The position numbers were made by a program, and so were the translations under genes. A DNA stretch of 64,000 nucleotides from Peronospora farinosa (Eukaryota > Oomycota > Peronosporomycetes > Peronosporales > Peronosporaceae), in NCBI GenBank assembly GCA_947646735.1, contig CANTFK010000994.1:372001-436000 (forward strand), read 5' to 3'. Below, one piece after another: positions 5,653 through 46,020 of the stretch. The notes below the pieces were generated by a model. It did not search any database. It worked only from the letters and a program-made list of their open reading frames with translations, and was not told the DNA's origin. Position 1 is the stretch's first letter; the number at the start of each line of letters is the position of its first letter.

Positions 5653-6108
5653 TGTCTGATACTTGTTTCTTCAGTCAGCGTTTGTCACTCGTCGTCTCTT
5701 TCCACTTGCACTACTTTTTACCGAAGCTGTAGGGAGCTTCAGAACTGATACCAACTAAAGAAAGTTGGAAGCATCTGCTGAAGACGCATACAGCCAGCAC
5801 ATACAAACAGATAGACGGCTTTTTTCGCGCGCTACGCAAGTTATCGCTAGCTCACAAAGCGATGTCACAGGAGAAGCCTATTTCAGGCTTCCGTGATCGA
5901 CTTGCAGCTCTACGTAGATTTTAGCTGGTGATGGACAAGTAGCATTTATTACCTACCTGCAAAGATGCCTTGTATTCTCAACTGACCGGCGTGGCGTTTG
6001 AGCCTTCTTAGACATGGATAGCTATGTTTACGGATGCTTGTTGTCGTTTGGTTGTGTGTGCGAGTAGTCAGCGTTTGTTTGATTGTGGTTTGATAATGTA
6101 GTTCATGT

Positions 6109-6180
6109 GCACCGTTGGTCTAATGGTTAGGATTCATCCCTTCCAAGGATGAGGTCGGGGTTCGATTCCCCGACGGCGCA
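6109..6180 (+). tRNA. tRNA-Gly(UCC), array copy U1
   Basis: This is the reference copy for the UCC type, 72 bases. The acceptor GCACCGT pairs with ACGGCGC except A3 against C70. The anticodon stem CATCC/GGATG closes the loop CTTCCAA, so the anticodon is UCC. The T arm is GGGGTTCGATTCCCC and the discriminator base is A. The D arm GGTCTAATGGTTAGGA is close to eukaryotic Glu/Gly tRNAs, but anticodon, discriminator and G1-C72/C2-G71 pairs fit glycine. There is no intron and no encoded CCA. A T4 Pol III stop lies at 6183-6186. Confidence 0.93.
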
Positions 6181-6182
6181 AG

Positions 6183-6186
6183 TTTT
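6183..6186 (+). terminator. Pol III T4 terminator after tRNA-Gly(UCC) (representative)
   Basis: TTTT begins three bases after the last base of the UCC gene. The same AGTTTT context follows every UCC gene in a long unit; it is absent after the short-unit UCC gene at 16096. Confidence 0.7.
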
Positions 6187-6533
6187 GCCAGCTGTCACTA
6201 CGCTTAGCCTCGCTTGTTGATCGTATTCCCACCTTACTTCATCCAGGTGTTCGTCACTGAGATGAAAGTTATATAGAGACAGGCCCTTGTTTTGTGTCGT
6301 GTAGCTGTGTAGTAAGGCATACCGAGTGCAAGCATTGGCTCTTTCTGTCAGGTGGTGTGTGCAGCTTATGGACTCGGACAGCTTGAAGGGGTTTGTGGGC
6401 TGCACCACCTTCTCCGCCATGTTTGAGGTGCTGTGTGTGCAGGTACGTGCAAGTTGCTAAGGTTGTGTAGGCTGTGATTTTGCAGATGTTTGTATAGTTC
6501 AAGAAGACTTTCTGGAACAGGTCGTGTGACGGC

Positions 6534-6606
6534 GCGCCGTTGGTCTAATGTGTTAGGATTCATCCCTCCCACGGATGAGGTCGGGGTTCGATTCCTCGAC
6601 GGCGCA
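6534..6606 (+). tRNA. tRNA-Gly(CCC), array copy C1
   Basis: This is the reference copy for the CCC type, 73 bases. The acceptor GCGCCGT pairs fully with ACGGCGC. The loop CTCCCAC gives anticodon CCC. The D loop reads AATGTGTTAGG, one base longer than in the UCC gene, which interrupts the usual GG pair. The T stem has one G-U (GGGG with CCTC). It is followed by a conserved hairpin rather than a T run. Confidence 0.88.
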
Positions 6607-6638
6607 CGTCTTCCTTGCGAGACAAGCACGAGGACGTG
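6605..6638 (+). other. Conserved trailer hairpin after tRNA-Gly(CCC) (representative)
   Basis: CACGTC (6605-6610, overlapping the last two tRNA bases) pairs with GACGTG (6633-6638). Inside, CTTG (6614-6617) pairs with CAAG (6623-6626). Both stems are kept through the array while the small loop varies (CGAGA to CGAGC). The hairpin could compete with the mature 3' end or guide trailer processing (inference). Confidence 0.55.
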
Positions 6639-6708
6639 GCTTATCGTGTCTGATACTTGTTTCTTCAGTCAGCGTTTGTCACTCGTCGTCTCTTTCCATT
6701 TGCACTAC

Positions 6709-6713
6709 TTTTT
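6709..6713 (+). terminator. First T run downstream of tRNA-Gly(CCC) (representative)
   Basis: TTTTT here is the first run of four or more T after the CCC gene at 6534-6606, about 100 bases downstream. Other copies also have a T run at this place, though its length and flanks vary. The CCC precursor would therefore carry an unusually long 3' trailer if this is the stop used. Confidence 0.45.
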
Positions 6714-7103
6714 ACCGAAGCTGTAGGGAGCTTCAGAACTGATACCAACTAAAGAAAGTTGGAAGCATCTGCTGAAGACGCATACAGCCAGCACATACAA
6801 ACAGATAGACGGCTTTTTTCGCGCGCTACGCAAGTTATCGCTAGCTCACAAAGCGATGTCACAGGAGAAGCCTATTTCAGGCTTCCGTGATCGACTTGCA
6901 GCTCTACGTAGATTTTAGCTGGTGATGGACAAGTAGCATTTATTACCTACCTGCAAAGATGCCTTGTATTCTCAACTGAGCCGGCGTGGCGTCTGAGCCT
7001 TCTTAGACATGGATAGCTATGTTTATGGATGCTTGTTGTCGTTTGGTTGTGTGTGCGAGTAGTCAGCGTTTGTTTGATTGTGGTTTGATAATGTAGTTCA
7101 TGT

Positions 7104-7175
7104 GCACCGTTGGTCTAATGGTTAGGATTCATCCCTTCCAAGGATGAGGTCGGGGTTCGATTCCCCGACGGCGCA
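7104..7175 (+). tRNA. tRNA-Gly(UCC), copy U2
   Basis: Same as U1; T4 stop at 7178-7181. Confidence 0.93.
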
Positions 7176-7528
7176 AGTTTTGCCAGCTGTCACTACGCTT
7201 AGCCTCGCTTGTTGATCGTATTCCCACCTTACTTCATCCAGGTGTTCGTCACTGAGATGAAAGTTATATGGAGACAGGCCCTTGTTTTGTGTCGTGTAGC
7301 TGTGTAGTAAGGCATACCGAGTGCAAGCATTGGCTCTTTCTGTCAGGTGGTGTGTGCAGCTTATGGACTCGGACAGCTTGAAGGGGTTTGTGGGCTGCAC
7401 CACGTTCTCCGCCATGTTTGAGGTGCTGTGTGTGCAGGTACGTGCAAGTTGCTAAGGTTGTGTAGGCTGTGATTTTGCAGATGTTTGTATAGTTCAAGAA
7501 GACTTTCTGGAACAGGTCGTGTGACGGC

Positions 7529-7601
7529 GCGCCGTTGGTCTAATGTGTTAGGATTCATCCCTCCCACGGATGAGGTCGGGGTTCGATTCCTCGACGGCGC
7601 A
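7529..7601 (+). tRNA. tRNA-Gly(CCC), copy C2
   Basis: Same as C1: 73 bases, extra D-loop base, G-U in the T stem. Confidence 0.87.
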
Positions 7602-8099
7602 CGTCTTCCTTGCGAGACAAGCACGAGGACGTGGCCTATCGTGTCTGATACTTGTTTCTTCAGTCAGCGTTTGTCACTCGTCGTCTCTTTCCATTTGCAC
7701 TACTTTTTACCGAAGCTGTAGGGAGCTTCAGAACTGATACCAACTAAAGAAAGTTGGAAGCATCTGCTGAAGACGCATACAGCCAGCACATACAAACAGA
7801 TAGACGGCTTTTTTCGCGCGCTACGCAAGTTATCGCTAGCTCACAAAGCGATGTCACAGGAGAAGCCCATTTCAGGCTTCCGTGATCGACTTGCAGCTCT
7901 ACGTAGAGTTTAGCTGGTGATGGACAAGTAGCATTGTATTACCTACCTGCAAAGATGCCTTGTATTCTCAACTGAGCCGGCGTGGCGTCTGAGCCTTCTT
8001 AGACATGGATAGCTATGTTTATGGATGTTTGTTGTCGTTTGGTTGTGTGTGCGAGTAGTCAGCGTTTGTTTGATTGTGGTTTGATAATGTAGTTCATGT

Positions 8100-8171
8100 G
8101 CACCGTTGGTCTAATGGTTAGGATTCATCCCTTCCAAGGATGAGGTCGGGGTTCGATTCCCCGACGGCGCA
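8100..8171 (+). tRNA. tRNA-Gly(UCC), copy U3
   Basis: Same as U1; T4 stop at 8174-8177. Confidence 0.93.
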
Positions 8172-8524
8172 AGTTTTGCCAGCTGTCACTACGCTTAGCC
8201 TCGCTTGTTGATCGTATTCCCACCTTACTTCATCCAGGTGTTCGTCACTGAGATGAAAGTTATATGGAGACAGGCCCTTGTTTTGTGTCGTGTAGCTGTG
8301 TAGTAAGGCATACCGAGTGCAAGCATTGGCTCTTTCTGTCAGGTGGTGTGTGCAGCTTATGGACTCGGACAGCTTGAAGGGGTTTGTGGGCTGCACCACC
8401 TTCTCCGCCATGTTTGAGGTGCTGTGTGTGCAGGTACGTGCAAGTTGCTAAGGTTGTGTAGGCTGTGATTTTGCAGATGTTTGTATAGTTCAAGAAGACT
8501 TTCTGGAACAGGTCGTGTGACGGC

Positions 8525-8597
8525 GCGCCGTTGGTCTAATGTGTTAGGATTCATCCCTCCCACGGATGAGGTCGGGGTTCGATTCCTCGACGGCGCA
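8525..8597 (+). tRNA. tRNA-Gly(CCC), copy C3
   Basis: Same as C1: 73 bases, extra D-loop base, G-U in the T stem. Confidence 0.87.
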
Positions 8598-9094
8598 CGT
8601 CTTCCTTGCGAGACAAGCACGAGGACGTGGCCTATCGTGTCTGATACTTGTTTCTTCAGTCAGCGTTTGTCACTCGTCGTCTCTTTCCATTTGCACTACT
8701 TTTTACCGAAGCTGTAGGGAGCTTCAGAACTGATACCAACTAAAGAAAGTTGGAAGCATCTGCTGAAGACGCATACAGCCAGCACATACAAACAGATAGA
8801 CGGCTTTTTTCGCGCGCTACGCAAGTTATCGCTAGCTCACAAAGCGATGTCACAGGAGAAGCCCATTTCAGGCTTCCGTGATCGACTTGCAGCTCTACGT
8901 AGAGTTTAGCTGGTGATGGACAAGTAGCATTTATTACCTACCTGCAAAGCTGCCTTGTATTCTCAACTGAGCCGGCGTGGCGTCTGAGCCTTCTTAGACA
9001 TGGATAGCTATGTTTATGGATGTTTGTTGTCGTTTGGTTGTGTGTGCGAGTAGTCAGCGTTTGTTTGATTGTGGTTTGATAATGTAGTTCATGT

Positions 9095-9166
9095 GCACCG
9101 TTGGTCTAATGGTTAGGATTCATCCCTTCCAAGGATGAGGTCGGGGTTCGATTCCCCGACGGCGCA
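9095..9166 (+). tRNA. tRNA-Gly(UCC), copy U4
   Basis: Same as U1; T4 stop at 9169-9172. Confidence 0.93.
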
Positions 9167-9519
9167 AGTTTTGCCAGCTGTCACTACGCTTAGCCTCGCT
9201 TGTTGATCGTATTCCCACCTTACTTCATCCAGGTGTTCGTCACTGAGATGAAAGTTATATGGAGACAGGCCCTTGTTTTGTGTCGTGTAGCTGTGTAGTA
9301 AGGCATACCGAGTGCAAGCATTGGCTCTTTCTGTCAGGTGGTGTGTGCAGCTTATGGACTCGGACAGCTTGAAGGGGTTTGTGGGCTGCACCACCTTCTC
9401 CGCCATGTTTGAGGTGCTGTGTGTGCAGGTACGTGCAAGTTGCTAAGGTTGTGTAGGCTGTGATTTTGCAGATGTTTGTATAGTTCAAGAAGACTTTCTG
9501 GAACTAGTCGTGTGTCGGC

Positions 9520-9592
9520 GCGCCGTTGGTCTAATGTGTTAGGATTCATCCCTCCCACGGATGAGGTCGGGGTTCGATTCCCCGACGGCGCA
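9520..9592 (+). tRNA. tRNA-Gly(CCC), copy C4
   Basis: 73 bases with the extra D-loop base; T stem fully paired (CCCC). Confidence 0.87.
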
Positions 9593-10091
9593 CGTCTTCC
9601 TTGCGAGACAAGCACGAGGACGTGGCCAATCGTGTCTGATACTTGTTTCTTCAGTCAGCGTTTGTCACTCGTCGTCTCTTTCCATTTGCACTACTTTTTA
9701 CCGAAGCTGTAGGGAGCTTCAGAACTGATACCAACTAAAGAAAGTTGGAAGCTATCTGCTGAAGACGCATACAGCCAGCACATACAAACAGATAGACGGC
9801 TTTTTTCGCGCGCTACGCAAGTTATCGCTAGCTCACAAAGCGATGTCACAGGAGAAGCCTATTTCAGGCTTCCGTGATCGACTTGCAGCTCTACGTAGAT
9901 TTTAGCTGGTGATGGACAAGTAGCATTTATTACCTACCTGCAAAGCTGCCTTGTATTCTTAACTGAGCCGGCGTGGCGTCTGAGCCTTCTTAGACATGGA
10001 TAGCTATGTTTATGGATGCTTGTTGTCGTTTGGTTGCTGTGTGCGAGTAGTCAGCGTTTGTTTGATTGTGGTTTGATAATGTAGTTCATGT

Positions 10092-10163
10092 GCACCGTTG
10101 GTCTAATGGTTAGGATTCATCCCTTCCAAGGATGAGGTCGGGGTTCGATTCCCCGACGGCGCA
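10092..10163 (+). tRNA. tRNA-Gly(UCC), copy U5
   Basis: Same as U1; T4 stop at 10166-10169. Confidence 0.93.
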
Positions 10164-10516
10164 AGTTTTGCCAGCTGTCACTACGCTTAGCCTCGCTTGT
10201 TGATCGTATTCCCACCTTACTTCATCCAGGTGTTCGTCACTGAGATGAAAGTTATATGGAGACAGGCCCTTGTTTTGTGTCGTGTAGCTGTGTAGTAAGG
10301 CATACCGAGTGCAAGCATTGGCTCTTTCTGCCAGGTGGTGTGTGCAGCTTATGGACTCGGACAGCTTGAAGGGGTTTGTGGGCTGCACCACCTTCTCCGC
10401 CATGTTTGAGGTGCTGTGTGTGCAGGTACGTGCAAGTTGCTAAGGTTGTGTAGGCTGTGATTTTGCAGATGTTTGTATAGTTCAAGAAGACTTTCTGGAA
10501 CTAGTCGTGTGTCGGC

Positions 10517-10589
10517 GCGCCGTTGGTCTAATGTGTTAGGATTCATCCCTCCCACGGATGAGGTCGGGGTTCGATTCCCCGACGGCGCA
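10517..10589 (+). tRNA. tRNA-Gly(CCC), copy C5
   Basis: Same as C4: extra D-loop base, T stem fully paired. Confidence 0.87.
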
Positions 10590-11092
10590 CGTCTTCCTTG
10601 CGAGACAAGCACGAGGACGTGGCCAATCGTGTCTGATACTTGTTTCTTCAGTCAGCGTTTGTCACTCGTCGTCTCTTTCCATTTGCACTACTTTTTACCG
10701 AAGCTGTAGGGAGCTTCAGAACTGATACCAACTAAAGAAAGTTGGAAGCTTTGATCTGCTGAAGACGCATACAGCCAGCACATACAAACAGATAGACGGC
10801 TTTTTTCGCGCGCTACGCAAGTTATCGCTAGCTCACAAAGCGATGTCACAGGAGAAGCCTATTTCAGGCTTCCGTGATCGACTTGCAGCTCTACGTAGAT
10901 TTTAGCTGGTGATGGACAAGTAGCATTTATTACCTACCTGCAAAGCTGCCTTGTATTCTTAACTGAGCCGGCGTGGCGTCTGAGCCTTCTTAGACATGGA
11001 TAGCTATGTTTATGGATGCTTGTTGTCGTTTGGTTGCTTGTGTGCGAGTAGTCAGCGTTTGTTTGATTGTGGTTTGATAATGTAGTTCATGT

Positions 11093-11164
11093 GCACCGTT
11101 GGTCTAATGGTTAGGATTCATCCCTTCCAAGGATGAGGTCGGGGTTCGATTCCCCGACGGCGCA
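11093..11164 (+). tRNA. tRNA-Gly(UCC), copy U6
   Basis: Same as U1; T4 stop at 11167-11170. Confidence 0.93.
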
Positions 11165-11517
11165 AGTTTTGCCAGCTGTCACTACGCTTAGCCTCGCTTG
11201 TTGATCGTATTCCCACCTTACTTCATCCAGGTGATCGTCACTGAGATGAAAGTTATATGGAGACAGGCCCTTGTTTTGTGTCGTGTAGCTGTGTAGTAAG
11301 GCATACCGAGTGCAAGCATTGGCTCTTTCTGCCAGGTGGTGTGTGCAGCTTATGGACTCGGACAGCTTGAAGGGGTTTGTGGGCTGCACCACCTTCTCCG
11401 CCATGTTTGAGGTGCTGTGTGTGCAGGTACGTGCAAGTTGCTAAGGTTGTGTAGGCTGTGATTTTGCAGATGTTTGTATAGTTCAAGAAGACTTTCTGGA
11501 ACTAGTCGTGTGTCGGC

Positions 11518-11590
11518 GCGCCGTTGGTCTAATGTGTTAGGATTCATCCCTCCCACGGATGAGGTCGGGGTTCGATTCCCCGACGGCGCA
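11518..11590 (+). tRNA. tRNA-Gly(CCC), copy C6
   Basis: Same as C4. Confidence 0.87.
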
Positions 11591-12092
11591 CGTCTTCCTT
11601 GCGAGACAAGCACGAGGACGTGGCCAATCGTGTCTGATACTTGTTTCTTCAGTCAGCGTTTGTCACTCGTCGTCTCTTTCCATTTGCACTACTTTTTACC
11701 GAAGCTGTAGGGAGCTTCAGAACTGATACCAACTAAAGAAAGTTGGAAGCTTGATCTGCTGAAGACGCATACAGCCAGCACATACAAACAGATAGACGGC
11801 TTTTTTCGCGCGCTACGCAAGTTATCGCTAGCTCACAAAGCGATGTCACAGGAGAAGCCCATTTCAGGCTTCCGTGATCGACTTGCAGCTCTACGTAGAT
11901 TTTAGCTGGTGATGGACAAGTAGCATTTATTACCTACCTGCAAAGCTGCCTTGTATTCTTAACTGAGCCGGCGTGGCGTCTGAGCCTTCTTAGACATGGA
12001 TAGCTATGTTTATGGATGCTTGTTGTCGTTTGGTTGCGTGTGTGCGAGTAGTCAGCGTTTGTTTGATTGTGGTGTGGTAATGTAGTTCATGT

Positions 12093-12164
12093 GCACCGTT
12101 GGTCTAATGGTTAGGATTCATCCCTTCCAAGGATGAGGTCGGGGTTCGATTCCCCGACGGCGCA
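12093..12164 (+). tRNA. tRNA-Gly(UCC), copy U7
   Basis: Same as U1; T4 stop at 12167-12170. Upstream flank reads GGTGTGGTAATG rather than GGTTTGATAATG. Confidence 0.93.
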
Positions 12165-16095: not shown

Positions 16096-16167
16096 GCACC
16101 GTTGGTCTAATGGTTAGGATTCATCCCTTCCAAGGATGAGGTCGGGGTTCGATTCCCCGACGGCGCA
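16096..16167 (+). tRNA. tRNA-Gly(UCC), copy U11, short-unit hybrid
   Basis: The UCC gene body is joined directly to the CCC-type trailer (CGTCTTCC...). Spacer A and the T4 stop are missing, so the crossover lay downstream of the anticodon. Confidence 0.92.
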
Positions 16168-19100: not shown

Positions 19101-19172
19101 GCGCCGTTGGTCTAATGGTTAGGATTCATCCCTCCCACGGATGAGGTCGGGGTTCGATTCCCCAACGGCGCA
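19101..19172 (+). tRNA. tRNA-Gly(CCC), copy C13
   Basis: 72-base form; the 3' side reads CCCAACGGCGCA, a G-to-A change that breaks the outermost T-stem pair. Confidence 0.88.
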
Positions 19173-20174: not shown

Positions 20175-20688
20175 CGTCTTCCTTGCGAGCCAAGCACGAG
20201 GACGTGGCCAATCGTGCCTGATACTTGTTTCTTCAGTCAGCGTTTGTCACTCGTCGTCTCTTTCTATTTGCATTGTTTTTTACCGAATCTGTAGGGAGCT
20301 TCAGAACTGATACTAACTAAAGAAAGTTGGAAGCTTTAGAATCGGCTGAAGACGCATACACCCAGCACAAACAAACAGATAGACGGCTCTTTTCGCGCGC
20401 TACACAAGTTATCGCTAGCTCACAAAGCGATGTCACAGGAGAAGCCTATTTCAGGCTTCCGTCAATCGACTTGCAGCTCTACGTAGATTTTAGCTGGTGA
20501 TGGACAAGTAGCATTGTTTATCTACCTGCAAAGCTGCCTTGTATTCTCAACTGAGCCGGCGTGGCGTCTGAGCCTTCTTAGACATGGATAGCTATGTTTA
20601 TGGATGTTTGTTGTCGTTTGGTTGTGTGTGCGAGTAGTCAGCGTTTGTTTGATTGTGGTTTGATAATGTAGTTCATGTGCACCGTTGG

Positions 20689-20760
20689 TCTAATGGTTAG
20701 GATTCATCCCTCCCACGGATGAGGTCGGGGTTCGATTCCCCGACGGCGCACGTCTTCCTT
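20689..20760 (+). tRNA. tRNA-Gly(CCC), copy C15, short-unit chimera
   Basis: The 5' flank and GCACCGT acceptor are of the UCC gene (A3-C70 mismatch); the anticodon loop CTCCCAC and the trailer are of the CCC gene. The crossover lies between base 3 and the anticodon. Confidence 0.92.
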
Positions 20761-21263
20761 GCGAGCCAAGCACGAGGACGTGGCCAATCGTGTCTGATAC
20801 TTGTTTCTTCAGTCAGCGTTTGTCACTCGTCGTCTCTTTCCATTTGCACTGTTTTCTGTATAGGGAGCCGAATCTGTAGGGAGCTTCAGAACTGATACTA
20901 ACTAATAAAAGTCGGAAGCTTTAGAATCGGCTGAAGACGCATACACCCAGCACAAACAAACAGATAGACGGCTCTTTTCGCGCGCTACACAAGTTATCGC
21001 TAGCTCACAAAGCGATGTCACAGGAGAAGCCTATTTCAGGCTTCCGTCAATCGACTTGCAGCTCTACGTAGATTTTAGCTGGTGATGGACAAGTAGCATT
21101 GTTTATCTACCTGCAAAGCTGCCTTGTATTCTCAACTGAGCCGGCGTGGCGTCTGAGCCTTCTTAGACATGGATAGCTATGTTTATGGATGCTTGTTGTC
21201 GTTTGGTTGTGTGTGCGAGTAGTCAGCGTTTGTTTGATTGTGGTTTGATAATGTAGTTCATGT

Positions 21264-21335
21264 GCACCGTTGGTCTAATGGTTAGGATTCATCCCTCCCA
21301 CGGATGAGGTCGGGGTTCGATTCCCCGACGGCGCA
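21264..21335 (+). tRNA. tRNA-Gly(CCC), copy C16, short-unit chimera
   Basis: Same chimeric form as C15. Confidence 0.92.
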
Positions 21336-21844
21336 CGTCTTCCTTGCGAGCCAAGCACGAGGACGTGGCCAATCGTGTCTGATACTTGTTTCTTCAGTCA
21401 GCGTTTGTCACTCGTCGTCTCTTTCCATTTGCACTATTTTTTTAGGGCCGAAGCTGTAGGGAGCTTCAGAACTGATACTAACTAATAGAAAGTTGGAAGC
21501 TTTAGAATCGGCTGAAGACGCATACACCCAGCACAAACAAACAGATAGACGGCTCTTTTCGCGCGCTACACAAGTTATCGCTAGCTCACAAAGCGATGTC
21601 ACAGGAGAAGCCTATTTCAGGCTTCCGTCAATCGACTTGCAGCTCTACGTAGATTTTAGCTGGTGATGGACAAGTAGCATTGTTTATCTACCTGCAAAGC
21701 TGCCTTGTATTCTCAACTGAGCCGGCGTGGCGTCTGAGCCTTCTTAGACATGGATAGCTATGTTTATGGATGTTTGTTGTCGTTTGGTTGTGTGTGCGAG
21801 TAGTCAGCGTTTGTTTGATTGTGGTTTGATAATGTAGTTCATGT

Positions 21845-21916
21845 GCACCGTTGGTCTAATGGTTAGGATTCATCCCTTCCAAGGATGAGGTCGGGGTTCG
21901 ATTCCCCGACGGCGCA
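21845..21916 (+). tRNA. tRNA-Gly(UCC), copy U16
   Basis: Same as U1; T4 stop at 21919-21922. Lone long unit within the short-unit block. Confidence 0.93.
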
Positions 21917-22270
21917 AGTTTTGCCAGCTGTCACTACGCTTAGCCTCGCTTGTTGATCGTATTCCCACCTTACTTCATCCAGGTGATCGTCACTGAGAGG
22001 AAAGTTATATGAAGACAGGCCCTTGTATTGTGTCGTGTAGCTGTGTAGTAAGGCATACCGAGTGCAAGCATTAGCTCTTTCTGCCAGGTGGCGTGTGCAG
22101 CTTATGGACTCGGACAGCTTGAAAGGGGTTTGTGGGCTGCACCACCTTCTCCGCCATGTATGAGGTGCTGTGCGCGTGGGTACGTGCAAGTGGCTAAGGT
22201 TGTGTAGGCTGTGATTTTGCAGATGTTTGTATAGTTGAAGAAGGCTTTCTGGAACAAGTCGTGTGTCGGC

Positions 22271-22342
22271 GCGCCGTTGGTCTAATGGTTAGGATTCATC
22301 CCTCCCACGGATGAGGTCGGGGTTCGATTCCCCGACGGCGCA
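22271..22342 (+). tRNA. tRNA-Gly(CCC), copy C17
   Basis: As C9. Confidence 0.93.
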
Positions 22343-22848
22343 CGTCTTCCTTGCGAGCCAAGCACGAGGACGTGGCCAATCGTGCCTGATACTTGTTTCT
22401 TCAGTCAGCGTTTGTCACTCGTCGTCTCTTTCTATTTGCATTGTTTTTTAGCCGAATCTGTAGGGAGCTTCAGAACTGATACTAACTAATAGAAAGTTGG
22501 AAGCTTTAGAATCGGCTGAAGACGCATACACCCAGCACAAACAAACAGATAGACGGCTCTTTTCGCGCGCTACACAAGTTATCGCTAGCTCACAAAGCGA
22601 TGTCACAGGAGAAGCCTATTTCAGGCTTCCGTCAATCGACTTGCAGCTCTACGTAGATTTTAGCTGGTGATGGACAAGTAGCATTGTTTATCTACCTGCA
22701 AAGCTGCCTTGTATTCTCAACTGAGCCGGCGTGGCGTCTGAGCCTTCTTAGACATGGATAGCTATGTTTATGGATGCTTGTTGTCGTTTGGTTGTGTGTG
22801 CGAGTAGTCAGCGTTTGTTTGATTGTGGTTTGATAATGTAGTTCATGT

Positions 22849-22920
22849 GCACCGTTGGTCTAATGGTTAGGATTCATCCCTCCCACGGATGAGGTCGGGG
22901 TTCGATTCCCCGACGGCGCA
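22849..22920 (+). tRNA. tRNA-Gly(CCC), copy C18, short-unit chimera
   Basis: Same chimeric form as C15. Confidence 0.92.
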
Positions 22921-23433
22921 CGTCTTCCTTGCGAGCCAAGCACGAGGACGTGGCCAATCGTGTCTGATACTTGTTTCTTCAGTCAGCGTTTGTCACTCGT
23001 CGTCTCTTTCCATTTGCACTGTTTTCTGTATAGGGAGCCGAATCTGTAGGGAGCTTCAGAACTGATACTAACTAATAAAAGTCGGAAGCTTTAGAATCGG
23101 CTGAAGACGCATACACCCAGCACAAACAAACAGATAGACGGCTCTTTTCGCGCGCTACACAAGTTATCGCTAGCTCACAAAGCGATGTCACAGGAGAAGC
23201 CTATTTCAGGCTTCCGTCAATCGACTTGCAGCTCTACGTAGATTTTAGCTGGTGATGGACAAGTAGCATTGTTTATCTACCTGCAAAGCTGCCTTGTATT
23301 CTCAACTGAGCCGGCGTGGCGTCTGAGCCTTCTTAGACATGGATAGCTATGTTTATGGATGCTTGTTGTCGTTTGGTTGTGTGTGCGAGTAGTCAGCGTT
23401 TGTTTGATTGTGGTTTGATAATGTAGTTCATGT

Positions 23434-23505
23434 GCACCGTTGGTCTAATGGGTAGGATTCATCCCTCCCACGGATGAGGTCGGGGTTCGATTCCCCGACG
23501 GCGCA
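23434..23505 (+). tRNA. tRNA-Gly(CCC), copy C19, short-unit chimera
   Basis: Chimeric form of C15 with a D-loop change (AATGGGTAGG). Confidence 0.9.
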
Positions 23506-24009
23506 CGTCTTCCTTGCGAGCCAATCACGAGGACGTGGCCAATCGTGTCTGATACTTGTTTCTTCAGTCAGCGTTTGTCACTCGTCGTCTCTTTCCATTT
23601 GCACTACTTTTTAGCCGAAGCTGTAGGGAGCTTCAGAACTGATACCAACTAAAGAAAGTTGGAAGCTTTGATCTGCTGAAGACGCATACATCCAGCACAT
23701 ACAAACAGATAGACGGCTTCTTTTCGCGCGCTACGCAAGTTATCGCTAGCTCACAAAGCGATGTCACAGGAGAAGCCTATTTCAGGCTTCCGTGATCGAC
23801 TTGCAGCTCTACGTAGATTTTAGCTGGTGATGGACAAGTAGCATTGTATTACCTACCTGCAAAGCTGCCTTGTATTCTTAACTGAGCCGGCGTGGCGTCT
23901 GAGCCTTCTTAGACATGGATAGCTATGTTTATGGATGTTTGTTGTCGTTTGGTTGTGTGTGCGAGTAGTCAGCGTTTGTTTGATTGTGGTTTGATAATGT
24001 AGTTCATGT

Positions 24010-24081
24010 GCACCGTTGGTCTAATGGTTAGGATTCATCCCTCCCACGGATGAGGTCGGGGTTCGATTCCCCGACGGCGCA
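24010..24081 (+). tRNA. tRNA-Gly(CCC), copy C20, short-unit chimera
   Basis: Same chimeric form as C15; preceded by a left-type spacer B. Confidence 0.92.
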
Positions 24082-24594
24082 CGTCTTCCTTGCGAGCCAA
24101 GCACGAGGACGTGGCCAATCGTGTCTGATACTTGTTTCTTCAGTCAGCGTTTGTCACTCGTCGTCTCTTTCCATTTGCACTGTTTTCTGTATAGGGAGCC
24201 GAATCTGTAGGGAGCTTCAGAACTGATACTAACTAATAAAAGTCGGAAGCTTTAGAATCGGCTGAAGACGCATACACCCAGCACAAACAAACAGATAGAC
24301 GGCTCTTTTCGCGCGCTACACAAGTTATCGCTAGCTCACAAAGCGATGTCACAGGAGAAGCCTATTTCAGGCTTCCGTCAATCGACTTGCAGCTCTACGT
24401 AGATTTTAGCTGGTGATGGACAAGTAGCATTGTTTATCTACCTGCAAAGCTGCCTTGTATTCTCAACTGAGCCGGCGTGGCGTCTGAGCCTTCTTAGACA
24501 TGGATAGCTATGTTTATGGATGTTTGTTGTCGTTTGCTTGTGTGTGCGAGTAGTCAGCGTTTGTTTGATTGTGGTTTGATAATGTAGTTCATGT

Positions 24595-24666
24595 GCACCG
24601 TTGGTCTAATGGTTAGGATTCATCCCTCCCACGGATGAGGTCGGGGTTCGATTCCCCGACGGCGCA
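24595..24666 (+). tRNA. tRNA-Gly(CCC), copy C21, short-unit chimera
   Basis: Same chimeric form as C15. Confidence 0.92.
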
Positions 24667-25163
24667 CGTCTTCCTTGCGAGCCAATCACGAGGACGTGGC
24701 CAATCGTGTCTGATACTTGTTTCTTCAGTCAGCGTTTGTCACTCGTCGTCTCTTTCCATTTGCACTACTTTTTACCGAAGCTGTAGGGAGCTTCAGAACT
24801 GATACCAACTAAAGAAAGTTGGAAGCATCTGCTGAAGACGCATACACCAGCACATACAAACAGATAGACGGCTTTTTTCGCGCGCTACGCAAGTTATCGC
24901 TAGATCACAAAGCGATGTCACAGGAGAAGCCTACTTCAGGCTTCCGTGATCGACTTGCAGCTCTACGTAGATTTTAGCTGGTGATGGACAAGTAGCATTT
25001 ATTACCTACCTGCAAAGCTGCCTTGTATTCTTAACTGACCGGCGTGGCGTTTGAGCCTTCTTAGACATGAATAGCTATGTTTATGGATGCTTGTTGTCGT
25101 TTGGTTGCTTGTGTGCGAGTAGTCAGCGTTTGTTTGATCGTGGTGTGGTAATGTAGTTCATGT

Positions 25164-25235
25164 GCACCGTTGGTCTAATGGTTAGGATTCATCCCTCCCA
25201 CGGATGAGGTCGGGGTTCGATTCCCCGACGGCGCA
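25164..25235 (+). tRNA. tRNA-Gly(CCC), copy C22, short-unit chimera
   Basis: Same chimeric form as C15; preceded by a left-type spacer B. Confidence 0.92.
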
Positions 25236-25747
25236 CGTCTTCCTTGCGAGCCAAGCACGAGGACGTGGCCAATCGTGTCTGATACTTGTTTCTTCAGTCA
25301 GCGTTTGTCACTCGTCGTCTCTTTCCATTTGCACTGTTTTCTGTATAGGAGCCGAATCTGTAGGGAGCTTCAGAACTGATACTAACTAATAAAAGTCGGA
25401 AGCTTTAGAATCGGCTGAAGACGCATACACCCAGCACAAACAAACAGATAGACGGCTCTTTTCGCGCGCTACACAAGTTATCGCTAGCTCACAAAGCGAT
25501 GTCACAGGAGAAGCCTATTTCAGGCTTCCGTCAATCGACTTGCAGCTCTACGTAGATTTTAGCTGGTGATGGACAAGTAGCATTGTTTATCTACCTGCAA
25601 AGCTGCCTTGTATTCTCAACTGAGCCGGCGTGGCGTCTGAGCCTTCTTAGACATGGATAGCTATGTTTATGGATGCTTGTTGTCGTTTGGTTGTGTGTGC
25701 GAGTAGTCAGCGTTTCTTTGATTGTGGTTTGATAATGTAGTTCATGT

Positions 25748-25819
25748 GCACCGTTGGTCTAATGGGTAGGATTCATCCCTCCCACGGATGAGGTCGGGGT
25801 TCGATTCCCCGACGGCGCA
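25748..25819 (+). tRNA. tRNA-Gly(CCC), copy C23, short-unit chimera
   Basis: Chimeric, with the same AATGGGTAGG D-loop change as C19. Confidence 0.9.
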
Positions 25820-26332
25820 CGTCTTCCTTGCGAGCCAAGCACGAGGACGTGGCCAATCGTGTCTGATACTTGTTTCTTCAGTCAGCGTTTGTCACTCGTC
25901 GTCTCTTTCCATTTGCACTGTTTTCTGTATAGGGAGCCGAATCTGTAGGGAGCTTCAGAACTGATACTAACTAATAAAAGTCGGAAGCTTTAGAATCGGC
26001 TGAAGACGCATACAGCCAGCACAGACAAACAGATAGACGGCTCTTTTCGCGCGCTACACAAGTTATCGCTAGCTCACAAAGCGATGTCACAGGAGAAGCC
26101 TATTTCAGGCTTCCGTCAATCGACTTGCAGCTCTACGTAGATTTTAGCTGGTGATGGACAAGTAGCATTGTTTATCTACCTGCAAAGCTGCCTTGTATTC
26201 TCAACTGAGCCGGCGTGGCGTCTGAGCCTTCTTAGACATGGATAGCTATGTTTATGGATGTTTGTTGTCGTTTGGTTGTGTGTGCGAGTAGTCAGCGTTT
26301 GTTTGATTGTGGTTTGATAATGTAGTTCATGT

Positions 26333-26404
26333 GCACCGTTGGTCTAATGGTTAGGATTCATCCCTCCCACGGATGAGGTCGGGGTTCGATTCCCCGACGG
26401 CGCA
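26333..26404 (+). tRNA. tRNA-Gly(CCC), copy C24, short-unit chimera
   Basis: Same chimeric form as C15. Confidence 0.92.
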
Positions 26405-26917
26405 CGTCTTCCTTGCGAGCCAAGCACGAGGACGTGGCCAATCGTGTCTGATACTTGTTTCTTCAGTCAGCGTTTGTCACTCGTCGTCTCTTTCTATTTG
26501 CACTGTTTTCTGTATAGGGAGCCGAATCTGTAGGGAGCTTCAGAACTGATACTAACTAATAAAAGTCGGAAGCTTTAGAATCGGCTGAAGACGCATACAG
26601 CCAGCACAAACAAACAGATAGACGGCTCTTTTCGCGCGCTACACAAGTTATCGCTAGCTCACAAAGCGATGTCACAGGAGAAGCCTATTTCAGGCTTCCG
26701 TCAATCGACTTGCAGCTCTACGTAGATTTTAGCTGGTGATGGACAAGTAGCATTGTTTATCTACCTGCAAAGCTGCCTTGTATTCTCAACTGAGCCGGCG
26801 TGGCGTCTGAGCCTTCTTAGACATGGATAGCTATGTTTATGGATGCTTGTTGTCGTTTGGTTGTGTGTGCGAGTAGTCAGCGTTTGTTTGATTGTGGTTT
26901 GATAATGTAGTTCATGT

Positions 26918-26989
26918 GCACCGTTGGTCTAATGGTTAGGATTCATCCCTCCCACGGATGAGGTCGGGGTTCGATTCCCCGACGGCGCA
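26918..26989 (+). tRNA. tRNA-Gly(CCC), copy C25, short-unit chimera
   Basis: Same chimeric form as C15; last short unit. Confidence 0.92.
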
Positions 26990-32966: not shown

Positions 32967-33038
32967 GCGCCGTTGGTCTAATGGTTAGGATTCATCCCTC
33001 CCACGGATGAGGTCGGGGTTCGATTCCCCGACGGCGCA
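32967..33038 (+). tRNA. tRNA-Gly(CCC), copy C31
   Basis: As C9. Confidence 0.93.
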
Positions 33039-33549: not shown

Positions 33550-33621
33550 GCACCGTTGGTCTAATGGTTAGGATTCATCCCTTCCAAGGATGAGGTCGGG
33601 GTTCGATTCCCCGACGGCGCA
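33550..33621 (+). tRNA. tRNA-Gly(UCC), copy U23
   Basis: Same as U1; T4 stop at 33624-33627. Confidence 0.93.
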
Positions 33622-33977
33622 AGTTTTGCCAGCTGTCACTACGCTTAGCCTCGCTTGTTGATCGTATTCCCACCTTACTTCATCCAGGTGATCGTCACTG
33701 AGAGGAAAGTTATATGAAGACAGGCCCTTGTATTGTGTCGTGTAGCTGTGTAGTAAGGCATACCGAGTGCAAGCATTGGCTCTTTCTGCCAGGTGGCTTG
33801 TGTGCAGCTTATGGACTCGGACAGCTTGAAAGAGGTTTGTGGGCTGCACCAACTTCTCCGCCATGTATGAGGTGCTGTGCGCGCGGGTACGTGCAAGTGG
33901 CTAAGGTTGTGTAGGCTGTGATTTTGCAGATGTTTGTATTGTTGAAGAAGGCTTTCTGGAACAGTTCGTGTATCGGC

Positions 33978-34049
33978 GCGCCGTTGGTCTAATGGTTAGG
34001 ATTCATCCCTCCCACGGATGAGGTCGGGGTTCGATTCCCCGACGGCGCA
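33978..34049 (+). tRNA. tRNA-Gly(CCC), copy C32
   Basis: As C9. Confidence 0.93.
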
Positions 34050-34561
34050 CGTCTTCCTTGCGAGCCAAGCACGAGGACGTGGCCAATCGTGTCTGATACT
34101 TGTTTCTTCAGTCAGCGTTTGTCACTCGTCGTCTCTTTCTATTTGCACTGTTTTTGTATAGGGAGCCGAATCTGTAGGGAGCTTCAGAACTGATACTAAC
34201 TAATAAAAGTTGGAAGCTTTAGAATCGGCTGAAGACGCATACAGCCAGCACAAACAAACAGATAGACGGCTCTTTTCGCGCGCTACACAAGTTATCGCTA
34301 GCTCACAAAGCGATGTCACAGGAGAAGCCTATTTCAGGCTTCCGTCAATCGACTTGCAGCTCTACGTAGATTTTAGCTGGTGATGGACAAGTAGCATTGT
34401 TTATCTACCTGCAAAGCTGCCTTGTATTCTCAACTGAGCCGGCGTGGCGTCTGAGCCTTCTTAGACATGGATAGCTATGTTTATGGATGTTTGTTGTCGT
34501 TTGGTTGTGTGTGCGAGTAGTCAGCGTTTGTTTGATTGTGGTTTGATAATGTAGTTCATGT

Positions 34562-34633
34562 GCACCGTTGGTCTAATGGTTAGGATTCATCCCTTCCAAG
34601 GATGAGGTCGGGGTTCGATTCCCCGACGGCGCA
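34562..34633 (+). tRNA. tRNA-Gly(UCC), copy U24
   Basis: Same as U1; T4 stop at 34636-34639. Confidence 0.93.
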
Positions 34634-34988
34634 AGTTTTGCCAGCTGTCACTACGCTTAGCCTCGCTTGTTGATCGTATTCCCACCTTACTTCATCCAGG
34701 TGATCGTCACTGAGAGGAAAGTTATATGAAGACAGGCCCTTGTATTGTGTCGTGTAGCTGTGTAGTAAGGCATACCGAGTGCAAGCATTAGCTCTTTCTG
34801 CCAGGTGGTTGTGTGCAGCTTATGGACTCGGACAGCTTGAAAGAGGTTTGTGGGCTGCACCAACTTCTCCGCCATGTATGAGGTGCTGTGCGCGCGGGTA
34901 CGTGCAAGTGGCTAAGGTTGTGTAGGCTGTGATTTTGCAGATGTTTGTATTGTTGAAGAAGACTTTCTGGAACAGTTCGTGTATCGGC

Positions 34989-35060
34989 GCGCCGTTGGTC
35001 TAATGGTTAGGATTCATCCCTCCCACGGATGAGGTCGGGGTTCGATTCCCCGACGGCGCA
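34989..35060 (+). tRNA. tRNA-Gly(CCC), copy C33
   Basis: As C9. Confidence 0.93.
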
Positions 35061-35573
35061 CGTCTTCCTTGCGAGCCAAGCACGAGGACGTGGCCAATCG
35101 TGTCTGATACTTGTTTCTTCAGTCAGCGTTTGTCACTCGTCGTCTCTTTCTATTTGCACTGTTTTCTGTTTAGGGAGCCGAATCTGTAGGGAGCTTCAGA
35201 ACTGATACTAACTAATAAAAGTTGGAAGCTTTAGAATCGGCTGAAGACGCATACAGCCAGCACAAACAAACAGATAGACGGCTCTTTTCGCGCGCTACAC
35301 AAGTTATCGCTAGCTCACAAAGCGATGTCACAGGAGAAGCCTATTTCAGGCTTCCGTCAATCGACTTGCAGCTCTACGTAGATTTTAGCTGGTGATGGAC
35401 AAGTAGCATTGTTTATCTACCTGCAAAGCTGCCTTGTATTCTCAACTGAGCCGGCGTGGCGTCTGAGCCTTCTTAGACATGGATAGCTATGTTTATGGAT
35501 GTTTGTTGTCGTTTGGTTGTGTGTGCGAGTAGTCAGCGTTTGTTTGATTGTGGTTTGATAATGTAGTTCATGT

Positions 35574-35645
35574 GCACCGTTGGTCTAATGGTTAGGATTC
35601 ATCCCTTCCAAGGATGAGGTCGGGGTTCGATTCCCCGACGGCGCA
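35574..35645 (+). tRNA. tRNA-Gly(UCC), copy U25
   Basis: Same as U1; T4 stop at 35648-35651. Confidence 0.93.
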
Positions 35646-36000
35646 AGTTTTGCCAGCTGTCACTACGCTTAGCCTCGCTTGTTGATCGTATTCCCACCTT
35701 ACTTCATCCAGGTGATCGTCACTGAGAGGAAAGTTATATGAAGACAGGCCCTTGTATTGTGTCGTGTAGCTGTGTAGTAAGGCATACCGAGTGCAAGCAT
35801 TGGCTCTTTCTGCCAGGTGCTTGTGTGCAGCTTATGGACTCGGACAGCTTGAAAGAGGTTTGTGGGCTGCACCAACTTCTCCGCCATGTATGAGGTGCTG
35901 TGCGCGCGGGTACGTGCAAGTGGCTAAGGTTGTGTAGGCTGTGATTTTGCAGATGTTTGTATAGTTGAAGAAGGCTTTCTGGAACAAGTCGTGTGTCGGC

Positions 36001-36072
36001 GCGCCGTTGGTCTAATGGTTAGGATTCATCCCTCCCACGGATGAGGTCGGGGTTCGATTCCCCGACGGCGCA
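36001..36072 (+). tRNA. tRNA-Gly(CCC), copy C34
   Basis: As C9. Confidence 0.93.
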
Positions 36073-36585
36073 CGTCTTCCTTGCGAGCCAAGCACGAGGA
36101 CGTGGCCAATCGTGTCTGATACTTGTTTCTTCAGTCAGCGTTTGTCACTCGTCGTCTCTTTCTATTTGCACTGTTTTCTGTATAGGGAGCCGAATCTGTA
36201 GGGAGCTTCAGAACTGATACTAACTAATAAAAGTTGGAAGCTTTAGAATCGGCTGAAGACGCATACAGCCAGCACAAACAAACAGATAGACGGCTCTTTT
36301 CGCGCGCTACACAAGTTATCGCTAGCTCACAAAGCGATGTCACAGGAGAAGCCTATTTCAGGCTTCCGTCAATCGACTTGCAGCTCTACGTAGATTTTAG
36401 CTGGTGATGGACAAGTAGCATTGTTTATCTACCTGCAAAGCTGCCTTGTATTCTCAACTGAGCCGGCGTGGCGTCTGAGCCTTCTTAGACATGGATAGCT
36501 ATGTTTATGGATGTTTGTTGTCGTTTGGTTGTGTGTGCGAGTAGTCAGCGTTTGTTTGATTGTGGTTTGATAATGTAGTTCATGT

Positions 36586-36657
36586 GCACCGTTGGTCTAA
36601 TGGTTAGGATTCATCCCTTCCAAGGATGAGGTCGGGGTTCGATTCCCCGACGGCGCA
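36586..36657 (+). tRNA. tRNA-Gly(UCC), copy U26
   Basis: Same as U1; T4 stop at 36660-36663. Confidence 0.93.
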
Positions 36658-37014
36658 AGTTTTGCCAGCTGTCACTACGCTTAGCCTCGCTTGTTGATCG
36701 TATTCCCACCTTACTTCATCCAGGTGATCGTCACTGAGAGGAAAGTTATATGAAGACAGGCCCTTGTATTGTGTCGTGTAGCTGTGTAGTAAGGCATACC
36801 GAGTGCAAGCATTAGCTCTTTCTGCCAGGTGGCTTGTGTGCAGCTTATGGACTCGGACAGCTTGAAAGAGGTTTGTGGGCTGCACCAACTTCTCCGCCAT
36901 GTATGAGGTGCTGTGCGCGCGGGTACGTGCAAGTGGCTAAGGTTGTGTAGGCTGTGATTTTGCAGATGTTTGTATTGTTGAAGAAGGCTTTCTGGAACAA
37001 GTTCGTGTGTCGGC

Positions 37015-37086
37015 GCGCCGTTGGTCTAATGGTTAGGATTCATCCCTCCCACGGATGAGGTCGGGGTTCGATTCCCCGACGGCGCA
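37015..37086 (+). tRNA. tRNA-Gly(CCC), copy C35
   Basis: As C9. Confidence 0.93.
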
Positions 37087-37599
37087 CGTCTTCCTTGCGA
37101 GCCAAGCACGAGGACGTGGCCAATCGTGTCTGATACTTGTTTCTTCAGTCAGCGTTTGTCACTCGTCGTCTCTTTCTATTTGCACTGTTTTCTGTATAGG
37201 GAGCCGAATCTGTAGGGAGCTTCAGAACTGATACTAACTAATAAAAGTTGGAAGCTTTAGAATCGGCTGAAGACGCATACAGCCAGCACAAACAAACAGA
37301 TAGACGGCTCTTTTCGCGCGCTACACAAGTTATCGCTAGCTCACAAAGCGATGTCACAGGAGAAGCCTATTTCAGGCTTCCGTCAATCGACTTGCAGCTC
37401 TACGTAGATTTTAGCTGGTGATGGACAAGTAGCATTGTTTATCTGCCTGCAAAGCTGCCTTGTATTCTCAACTGAGCCGGCGTGGCGTCTGAGCCTTCTT
37501 AGACATGGATAGCTATGTTTATGGATGCTTGTTGTCGTTTGGTTGTGTGTGCGAGTAGTCAGCGTTTGTTTGATTGTGGTTTGATAATGTAGTTCATGT

Positions 37600-37671
37600 G
37601 CACCGTTGGTCTAATGGTTAGGATTCATCCCTTCCAAGGATGAGGTCGGGGTTCGATTCCCCGACGGCGCA
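37600..37671 (+). tRNA. tRNA-Gly(UCC), copy U27
   Basis: Same as U1; T4 stop at 37674-37677. Confidence 0.93.
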
Positions 37672-38026
37672 AGTTTTGCCAGCTGTCACTACGCTTAGCC
37701 TCGCTTGTTGATCGTATTCCCACCTTTCTTCATCCAGGTGATCGTCACTGAGAGGAAAGTTATATGAAGACAGGCCTTTGTATTGTGTCGTGTAGCTGTG
37801 TAGTAAGGCATACCGAGTGCAAGCATTAGCTCTTTCTGCCAGGTGGCTTGTGTGCAGCTTATGGACTCGGACAGCTTGAAAGAGGTTTGTGGGCTGCACC
37901 AACTTCTCCGCCATGTATGAGGTGCTGTGCGCGCGGGTACGTGCAAGTGGCTAAGGTTGTGTAGGCTGTGATTTTTCAGGTGTTTGTATTGTTGAAGAAG
38001 ACTTTCGGAACAGTTCGTGTATCGGC

Positions 38027-38098
38027 GCGCCGTTGGTCTAATGGTTAGGATTCATCCCTCCCACGGATGAGGTCGGGGTTCGATTCCCCGACGGCGCA
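38027..38098 (+). tRNA. tRNA-Gly(CCC), copy C36
   Basis: As C9. Confidence 0.93.
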
Positions 38099-38611
38099 CG
38101 TCTTCCTTGCGAGCCAAGCACGAGGACGTGGCCAATCGTGTCTGATACTTGTTTCTTCAGTCAGCGTTTGTCACTCGTCGTCTCTTTCCATTTGCACTGT
38201 TTTCTGTATAGGGAGCCGAATCTGTAGGGAGCTTCAGAACTGATACTAACTAATAAAAGTCGGAAGCTTTAGAATCGGCTGAAGACGCATACAGCCAGCA
38301 CAAACAAACAGATAGACGGCTCTTTTCGCGCGCTACACAAGTTATCGCTAGCTCACAAAGCGATGTCACAGGAGAAGCCTATTTCAGGCTTCCGTCAATC
38401 GACTTGCAGCTCTACGTAGATTTTAGCTGGTGATGGACAAGTAGCATTGTTTATCTGCCTGCAAAGCTGCCTTGTATTCTCAACTGAGCCGGCGTGGCGT
38501 CTGAGCCTTCTTAGACATGGATAGCTATGTTTATGGATGCTTGTTGTCGTTTGGTTGTGTGTGCGAGTAGTCAGCGTTTGTTTGATTGTGGTTTGATAAT
38601 GTAGTTCATGT

Positions 38612-38683
38612 GCACCGTTGGTCTAATGGTTAGGATTCATCCCTTCCAAGGATGAGGTCGGGGTTCGATTCCCCGACGGCGCA
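38612..38683 (+). tRNA. tRNA-Gly(UCC), copy U28
   Basis: Same as U1; T4 stop at 38686-38689. Last UCC gene. Confidence 0.93.
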
Positions 38684-39038
38684 AGTTTTGCCAGCTGTCA
38701 CTACGCTTAGCCTCGCTTGTTGATCGTATTCCCACCTTTCTTCATCCAGGTGATCGTCACTGAGAGGAAAGTTATATGAAGACAGGCCTTTGTATTGTGT
38801 CGTGTAGCTGTGTAGTAAGGCATACCGAGTGCAAGCATTAGCTCTTTCTGCCAGGTGGCTTGTGTGCAGCTTATGGACTCGGACAGCTTGAAAGAGGTTT
38901 GTGGGCTGCACCAACTTCTCCGCCATGTATGAGGTGCTGTGCGCGCGGGTACGTGCAAGTGGCTAAGGTTGTGTAGGCTGTGATTTTTCAGGTGTTTGTA
39001 TTGTTGAAGAAGGCTTTCGGAACAGTTCGTGTATCGGC

Positions 39039-39110
39039 GCGCCGTTGGTCTAATGGTTAGGATTCATCCCTCCCACGGATGAGGTCGGGGTTCGATTCCC
39101 CGACGGCGCA
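39039..39110 (+). tRNA. tRNA-Gly(CCC), copy C37
   Basis: As C9; last complete tRNA gene of the array. Confidence 0.93.
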
Positions 39111-39510
39111 CGTCTTCCTTGCGAGCCAAGCACGAGGACGTGGCCAATCGTGTCTGATACTTGTTTCTTCAGTCAGCGTTTGTCACTCGTCGTCTCTTTC
39201 CATTTGCACTGTTTTCTGTTTAGGGAGCCGAATCTGTAGGGAGCTTCAGAACTGATACTAACTAATAAAAGTTGGAAGCTTTAGAATCGGCTGAAGACGC
39301 ATACAGCCAGCACAAACAAACAGATAGACGGCTCTTTTCGCGCGCTACACAAGTTATCGCTAGCTCACAAAGCGATGTCACAGGAGAAGCCTATTTCAGG
39401 CTTCCGTCAATCGACTTGCAGCTCTACGTAGATTTTAGCTGGTGATGGACAAGTAGCATTGTTTATCTACCTGCAAAGCTGCCTTGTATTCTCAACTGAG
39501 CCGGCGTGGC

Positions 39511-39568
39511 GCCGCCCCGGTGGGGGGGGGGGGGGGGGGGGTTGGGGGAAGTTGCTGGGGTTGGGTGG
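39511..39568. repeat. 20-base G run and G-rich junction in the last array unit
   Basis: The array sequence stops matching after CCGGCGTGGC (39501-39510). It is followed by a GC-rich stretch, a run of 20 G (39522-39541), and a G-enriched version of the end of spacer A (GTTGCT, then GGGG for AAGG). About 470 bp of normal unit, including a UCC gene, are missing. This could be a true G tract or low-quality consensus at an assembly join. Confidence 0.75.
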
Positions 39569-39631
39569 GGTGTGATTTTTCAGGTGTTTGTATTGTTGAA
39601 GAAGCTTTTCTGGAACAGGGCGTGTGTCGGC

Positions 39632-39668
39632 GCGCCGTTGGTCTAATGGTTAGGATTCATCCCTCCCA
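39632..39668 (+). pseudogene. Truncated tRNA-Gly(CCC), end of array
   Basis: GCGCCGTTGG... matches the CCC gene up to CCCTCCCA in the anticodon loop and then switches to unrelated DNA at 39669. The anticodon stem 3' side, T arm and acceptor 3' side are absent, so it cannot fold as a tRNA. Confidence 0.9.
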
Positions 39669-46015: not shown

Positions 46016-46020
46016 AAGAA

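Follow-up and report, generated by a model that had tools for sequence, protein, structure and literature searches.

A tandem array of glycine tRNA genes with hybrid units, probably the only source of cytosolic tRNA-Gly(UCC) and tRNA-Gly(CCC) in Peronospora farinosa

Introduction

The closest described counterparts of the locus studied here are the tandem transfer RNA (tRNA) gene arrays of oomycetes. In Phytophthora infestans there are 7,519 chromosomal tRNA genes, about 64% of them in arrays of single genes and 36% in units of two or three genes; for about two-thirds of the tRNA families all are on one chromosome, and the growth of the arrays is attributed to unequal crossing-over (PMC9584435; this and the other papers are cited from excerpts). 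In Peronospora effusa, 33-39 clusters per isolate hold about 99.6% of more than 6,000 tRNA genes, and are labelled SINE-like, after the short interspersed nuclear elements (PMC11540230). We have analyzed a tandem array of glycine tRNA genes in a stretch of 64,000 nucleotides of Peronospora farinosa DNA (the window: bases 372001-436000 of a 998-kb contig, in an assembly searched as 46.85 Mb in 274 contigs; positions without a contig label are those of the window). Our principal conclusion, to which we assign a probability of about 0.82, is that this is a tandem tRNA array of the oomycete kind, and that it provides, probably alone, the cytosolic tRNA-Gly(UCC) and tRNA-Gly(CCC) with which the organism reads the codons GGA and GGG. 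An earlier note on this stretch had supposed that tandem tRNA arrays were undescribed for such an organism, a claim that the two accounts just cited contradict.

Outside the oomycetes, nearly all tRNA genes of Entamoeba histolytica are in tandem arrays of multi-gene units, a likeness to the present locus; in E. histolytica and E. dispar, however, short tandem repeats lie between the genes (PMC2652664), and none are reported in the glycine array. The Arabidopsis tRNA Ser/Tyr (SYY) cluster is likewise made of tandem genes for more than one tRNA, but it is presented as redundant and as silent in most tissues (PMC12308677), whereas no dispersed cytosolic Gly-UCC or Gly-CCC genes were found here.

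Results

Gene content and unit structure

ARAGORN recognizes 65 tRNA-Gly genes in the window, all on the + strand and spanning 6108-39111, and Rfam model RF00005 gives 65 matches at the same positions, with scores of 55.9-63 bits. The anticodon is UCC in 28 genes and CCC in 37. When all 65 genes were typed by their flanks, 27 UCC and 27 CCC genes fell into two-gene units and 11 genes into one-gene units, which makes 38 units. The coordinates, single strand, gene counts and unit count given in the earlier note are thus borne out. Repeat-like sequence begins at 5653 (contig position 377653) and the final base of the array is 39668; the whole array (5653-39668, + strand) consists of the 38 units and a truncated right-hand unit. 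The P. infestans arrays are similarly built of head-to-tail units of one to three genes (PMC9584435), with 27 two-gene and 11 one-gene units as the equivalent here.

In the two-gene units (n = 27) the order is long spacer (497-513 bp), UCC gene, short spacer (352-357 bp), CCC gene; as an example, one such unit occupies 6607-7601 (+). The first UCC gene, at 6109-6180 (+), has an A3-C70 mismatch in the acceptor stem and TTTT directly downstream. The first CCC gene, at 6534-6606 (+), represents a variant of the left block of the array, with an extra D-loop base, a change in the T stem and a score of 55.9 bits. All 28 UCC gene bodies are identical in sequence; similarity among copies also characterizes the P. 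infestans arrays (PMC9584435).

No supported gene of another kind was found inside the array, in agreement with the earlier note. The region holds 19 open reading frames (ORFs) of at least 90 amino acids, all on the - strand and recurring with the units. A protein-coding role for the spacers, considered on account of these antisense ORFs and of an exon-like stretch read by eye, was dropped because just 6 of 26 short spacers have an antisense frame that stays open for at least 115 codons, and because the length of this spacer varies. Tandem Repeats Finder (period ≤500, score ≥50) returned no tandem-repeat row inside 5653-39668.

Search for other sources of the two tRNAs

The assembly was searched with sequence patterns. 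All 57 matches to the gene-body pattern TGGTCTAATGGNTAGGATTC, which misses nine 73-nt variants and counts the cut gene at the right edge, are within the glycine array, as are all 65 matches to a pattern for the 3' half of the gene; in this respect the locus resembles the families of P. infestans that are found in a single place (PMC9584435). Patterns for the anticodon arm place 28 of 41 UCC matches and 37 of 44 CCC matches in the array, and the corresponding reversed-pattern controls gave 67 and 11 matches (17 for GCC). All 20 off-array matches were scanned, and only one of them, on contig C259, is a tRNA-Gly gene; given the level of the reversed controls, the others look like noise.

The gene on C259, a tRNA-Gly(UCC), adjoins a tRNA-Tyr gene in DNA of mostly 14-28% GC, and DNA of 53-61% GC starts near 79.5-80 kb. 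Because it lies beside tRNA-Tyr in an AT-rich stretch that abuts DNA of much higher GC content, we regard the gene as mitochondrial-type, and it was set aside as a candidate for a second cytosolic gene. A related stretch on contig C12 is 95% alike over 80 bp, and ARAGORN calls no tRNA gene in it. Both AT-rich stretches adjoin DNA with a normal GC content, and are likely to be mitochondrial DNA within nuclear contigs.

The count of glycine tRNA genes elsewhere in the assembly, which the earlier note had proposed, thus yields by pattern no other cytosolic-type Gly-UCC or Gly-CCC gene, and a separate Gly-GCC array on contig C272. Genes that contain an intron, or whose B box or variable loop is atypical, escape these patterns. 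A genome scan with RF00005 scored 63 of 2,736 candidates, none of those listed being from the contig of the array, and is unusable as a census; the B-box pattern GGTTCRAWTCC, with 673 matches against 34 for its reversed control, is a rough pointer to the number of tRNA genes. On these sequence searches the glycine array is probably the only source of cytosolic tRNA-Gly(UCC) and tRNA-Gly(CCC). In a sample of 27 ORFs of at least 250 codons, taken from the window and the fetched loci and possibly including transposon ORFs, the 966 glycine codons are distributed as GGT 311, GGC 267, GGA 257 and GGG 131. Since about 27% of them are GGA, a working UCC tRNA is needed. Among the roles put forward in the earlier note, the supply of glycine tRNA is the best supported, as the patterns found no other cytosolic-type gene of either kind.

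Divergence among units

The 36 delimited stretches of the array all differ from one another, so the array is not one unit duplicated by software. Neighbouring two-gene units diverge by 0.89% on average; the mean rises with distance in rank and reaches 4.83% in the farthest pair. For the long spacers, divergence and distance are correlated with a Mantel r of 0.55, a value reached in 0 of 2,000 permutations. Divergence that rises with distance is the pattern expected from repeated unequal exchange. These figures refer to an alignment of 25 rows of two-gene length, one of which spans two units (2,003 bp, one unit having no anchor) and from which the first unit was left out; the spacer sets consist of 26 of 27 short-spacer rows, after removal of a 930-bp row that hides a variant gene at 19101, and of 36 long-spacer rows.

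Variable columns are concentrated in the spacers: there are none among the 72 columns of the UCC bodies, 2 among the 73 of the CCC bodies and 73 among the 874 of the spacers. The best-studied cluster of P. effusa also has an invariant tRNA body and a more variable spacer, and intergenic ORFs of about 300 nt are reported for the clusters of that species (PMC11540230).

Hybrid genes

According to flank typing, the gene of every one-gene unit (11 of 11) is a hybrid, with a 5' flank of the UCC type and a 3' flank of the CCC type. One of them, at 16096-16167 (+), is a UCC gene. The other ten have the CCC anticodon together with the A3 of the UCC gene, and lie in a single stretch (20679-26989, +), where they start at 20679, 21264, 22849, 23434, 24010, 24595, 25164, 25748, 26333 and 26918, with one intervening two-gene unit (21845 and 22271). 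The UCC and CCC genes of the right block differ only at positions 3, 34 and 38, which places the exchange points within identical tracts: between 3 and 34 for the ten CCC hybrids, and beyond 38 for the UCC hybrid. As judged from these junctions, at least two exchange events are required, and exchange inside the tRNA body would be the simplest account of the loss of the short spacer. The ratio of UCC to CCC genes is 27:27 in the two-gene units and 28:37 across the array. We recognized no earlier report of hybrid tRNA genes in arrays in the open-licence PMC literature, which is not proof of their absence, and the excerpts of PMC9584435 mention neither a Gly UCC/CCC unit nor hybrids from crossover within a gene.

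A comparable phenomenon is seen in a glutamine array of the same assembly (C247:171001-193462), in which ARAGORN, run on the joined stretch, finds 106 genes that follow no regular order (105 when the loci are scanned one by one); 53 are TTG, 52 are CTG, and the anticodon of the remaining gene has four bases. The parental types differ at the pair 2-71, which is C-G in TTG genes and G-C in CTG genes. A G2-G71 mismatch is present in 77 of the 106 genes, 73 of which combine a CTG-type 5' flank with a TTG-type 3' flank, and the acceptor stem is fully paired in only 27 of the 106. As this array is mostly hybrid, exchange within the gene body seems not to be special to the glycine array. The glutamine hybrids would represent the opposite product of such exchange, a short one-gene unit that has multiplied.

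Other arrays in the assembly

At least six further tandem arrays were found (Gln, Lys, Leu, Ala-His, Asp and Gly-GCC), plus a looser Ser/Trp/Thr cluster; six of the 20 stretches scanned for other arrays (L017 and L024-L028) contained no tRNA gene. Groupings described for P. infestans, namely Gln CTG/TTG, Ser-Trp-Thr and Leu-AAG (PMC9584435), recur here as arrays or clusters, and this common organization is probably inherited. The Gly-GCC array extends over about 47.2-86.4 kb of C272 with a unit of about 396 bp; from its length and unit, the number of genes is estimated at roughly 100. The GCC anticodon-arm pattern matches in 114 places, and at least 85 of these are on C272, the number among the 100 listed first. 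At the edge of this array (C272:45001-55000), three of 20 genes have the glycine anticodon ACC, which is rarely seen in eukaryotes. In the Ala-His array (C49:132001-140448), Ala-AGC and His-GTG genes directly abut each other in eight units of 774 bp that reach the end of the contig.

Edges and neighbouring genes

To the left of the array, a diverged relic of the short (UCC-to-CCC) spacer, in which no tRNA gene was recognized, occupies 4971-5041 (+) and is 76% alike over 71 bp: either the array formerly extended further, or the unit grew from sequence at this place. The right edge is less regular. A suspect seam at 39512-39575 (+) includes a run of 20 G at 39522, the only run of G or C of at least 7 in the window, with a net loss of about 420 bp of the unit and G-rich mismatches just to its right. 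The last Gly-CCC gene, which is not counted among the 65, is cut just past the anticodon (39632-39668, +; 37 nt left), and an exact search of the assembly found no orphan 3' half of it elsewhere. Abutting the cut gene is dispersed DNA related to retroelements (39669-46300, strand not assigned, right limit approximate and set by eye), with an ORF for an integrase zinc-binding domain at 41557-42204 (- strand) and, at 44127-44378, three copies of an 87-bp repeat. All 39 other scored copies of the dispersed element (40 of 280 candidates were scored) begin to match at 39667-39670. The right edge would thus reflect either truncation of the array by the end of the element together with a deletion, or a join made in error by the assembly.

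The neighbour on the left is a gene for a P5A-type ATPase (1080-4877, +), with more than one exon and an end read by eye. That on the right (47054-49011, +) has a second ORF (47728-49011) that matches AAA_25, ChlI and Lon_C, and that we take to be RadA-like. The closest named relative of a flanking GNAT protein is from P. effusa, with 94% identity across 66% of the query; next come an unnamed protein (83%) and, among the named ones, P. destructor (78%) and other Peronosporaceae, as befits an oomycete host. For the ORF at 54622-55812 (-) the best relative is an unnamed protein, 88% identical, and proteins of Phytophthora and Peronosclerospora follow; one of the weaker relatives carries the name photolyase/cryptochrome, yet Pfam gives no match.

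Discussion

As assembled, the array is genuine, and loci of its type are already known. Standard tRNA genes have internal A and B boxes, from which RNA polymerase III transcribes them; the array genes, which fit the consensus of both boxes, would be transcribed in the same way. Unequal exchange between copies would make the array grow, shrink and homogenize. Because the UCC and CCC genes share long identical tracts, exchange could also take place inside the gene body; it would then delete the short spacer, fuse two genes into one and shift the UCC:CCC ratio. Selection would keep enough working tRNA bodies, while the spacers are left to drift.

Several observations weigh against this proposal. 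The assembly may lack or collapse other arrays, and the patterns miss some genes, which leaves sole-source status unproven. The decay of similarity with distance is imperfect, the nearest relatives of some long spacers being many units away. The columns adjoining the UCC gene are also almost invariant, and since sites in related units are not independent, the Fisher test of body versus spacer variability (p = 0.005 for UCC bodies alone, p = 0.001 for UCC and CCC bodies) overstates its certainty and is taken as support rather than proof. All 28 UCC genes and the ten hybrid CCC genes have the A3-C70 mismatch; in predicted folds the acceptor stem of the right-block CCC gene is paired, the third pair is open in the UCC gene and in both kinds of hybrid, and the minimum-energy fold of the left-block CCC variant is not a cloverleaf. 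A TTTT lies within about 2 nt of the gene end called by ARAGORN in 27 of the 28 UCC genes, but none of the 37 CCC genes, nor the UCC hybrid, has one within 100 nt downstream (locus L014 was left out of these distances). Sampled genes of the Gly-GCC, Lys and Leu arrays likewise have no TTTT that near, so its absence is no mark of dead CCC genes.

The published description of the P. effusa clusters suggests another reading, that the units are SINE-like, tRNA-derived non-autonomous retroelements whose genes do not work (PMC11540230). The organisms are related, the unit of about 570-1,014 bp falls inside the published 284-1,070 bp, and some units have ORFs of about 300 nt, as that account gives for its clusters (PMC11540230). 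We nevertheless consider this highly improbable for the glycine array. All 28 matches to the short spacer and all 39 to the long spacer are in the array, and spacers found nowhere else argue against the published label; dispersed copies, by which a SINE is known, were not found, only the diverged relic that adjoins the array. The tRNA bodies, moreover, are complete and undecayed and are apparently the only cytosolic Gly-UCC and Gly-CCC genes, in contrast to clusters filed as SINE-like, and the same account places each family at one site, likely unable to mobilize (PMC11540230). An array that is in truth much shorter or longer, or misjoined, seems unlikely. The run of 20 G, the roughly 420 bp missing and the gene cut where a dispersed repeat starts, all at the right edge, would fit such an error and leave the copy number unsettled; the arrays on C247, C49, C58 and C229 reach contig ends, and two assemblies of P. 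effusa differ widely, with 7,391 and 270 tRNA genes (PMC9584435). On the other hand, the 36 stretches are all distinct with graded divergence, the left edge shows no irregularity and has a gene beside it, and the tRNA gene numbers of P. infestans have been confirmed by read depth (PMC9584435).

A selfish or neutral satellite carrying tRNA genes, with most copies silent and one or few working, is a doubtful reading, although the earlier note's option of a satellite derived from tRNA genes stands in part: the dynamics of the array are satellite-like, the correlation of codon use with the number of tRNA genes is only modest in P. infestans (PMC9584435), and the silence of the Arabidopsis Ser/Tyr cluster (PMC12308677) offers a precedent. 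It accords poorly with tRNA bodies that are less variable than the spacers, and with codon counts (GGT+GGC 578, GGA 257, GGG 131) that are not far off the gene numbers of an estimated 100 GCC, 28 UCC and 37 CCC. That the array serves as a chromatin barrier, or as a source of tRNA fragments, we think quite improbable. A part in nuclear or chromatin organization has been raised for the P. infestans arrays (PMC9584435), the level of a Gly tRNA fragment is highest at 48 h of P. infestans infection (PMC4272539), and tRNA-GlyCCC1 gives rise to an abundant small RNA in P. sojae (PMC5177647); either effect, however, could be a side effect of an ordinary tRNA locus.

With the array read as a working source of glycine tRNA, what is new here is its apparent sole supply of two tRNAs, the spacers confined to a single locus, the hybrid one-gene units and the A3-C70 mismatch in all UCC genes; the hybrids, the apparent sole-source status and the fixed mismatch are worth pursuing. 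As a rather speculative extension, crossover within the gene body might keep producing hybrids and resetting isoacceptor ratios in the isoacceptor arrays of oomycetes, so that many counted genes would have a broken acceptor pair, and the only tRNA reading GGA would either work mismatched or undergo correction at the RNA level, C-to-U editing at position 70 being one possibility. Since an A-C pair can mimic a G-U wobble pair, tolerance of A3-C70 is likelier than editing.

These results touch on an open disagreement, in which the P. infestans work treats such clusters as tRNA genes and the P. effusa work treats them as SINE-like. Should an array hold every gene for an essential tRNA, to dismiss it as a retroelement, or to mask it as one, would be a mistake. 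The hybrid genes would locate the exchange and explain the conversion of two-gene into one-gene units, and oomycete tRNA gene counts may include many structurally compromised copies.

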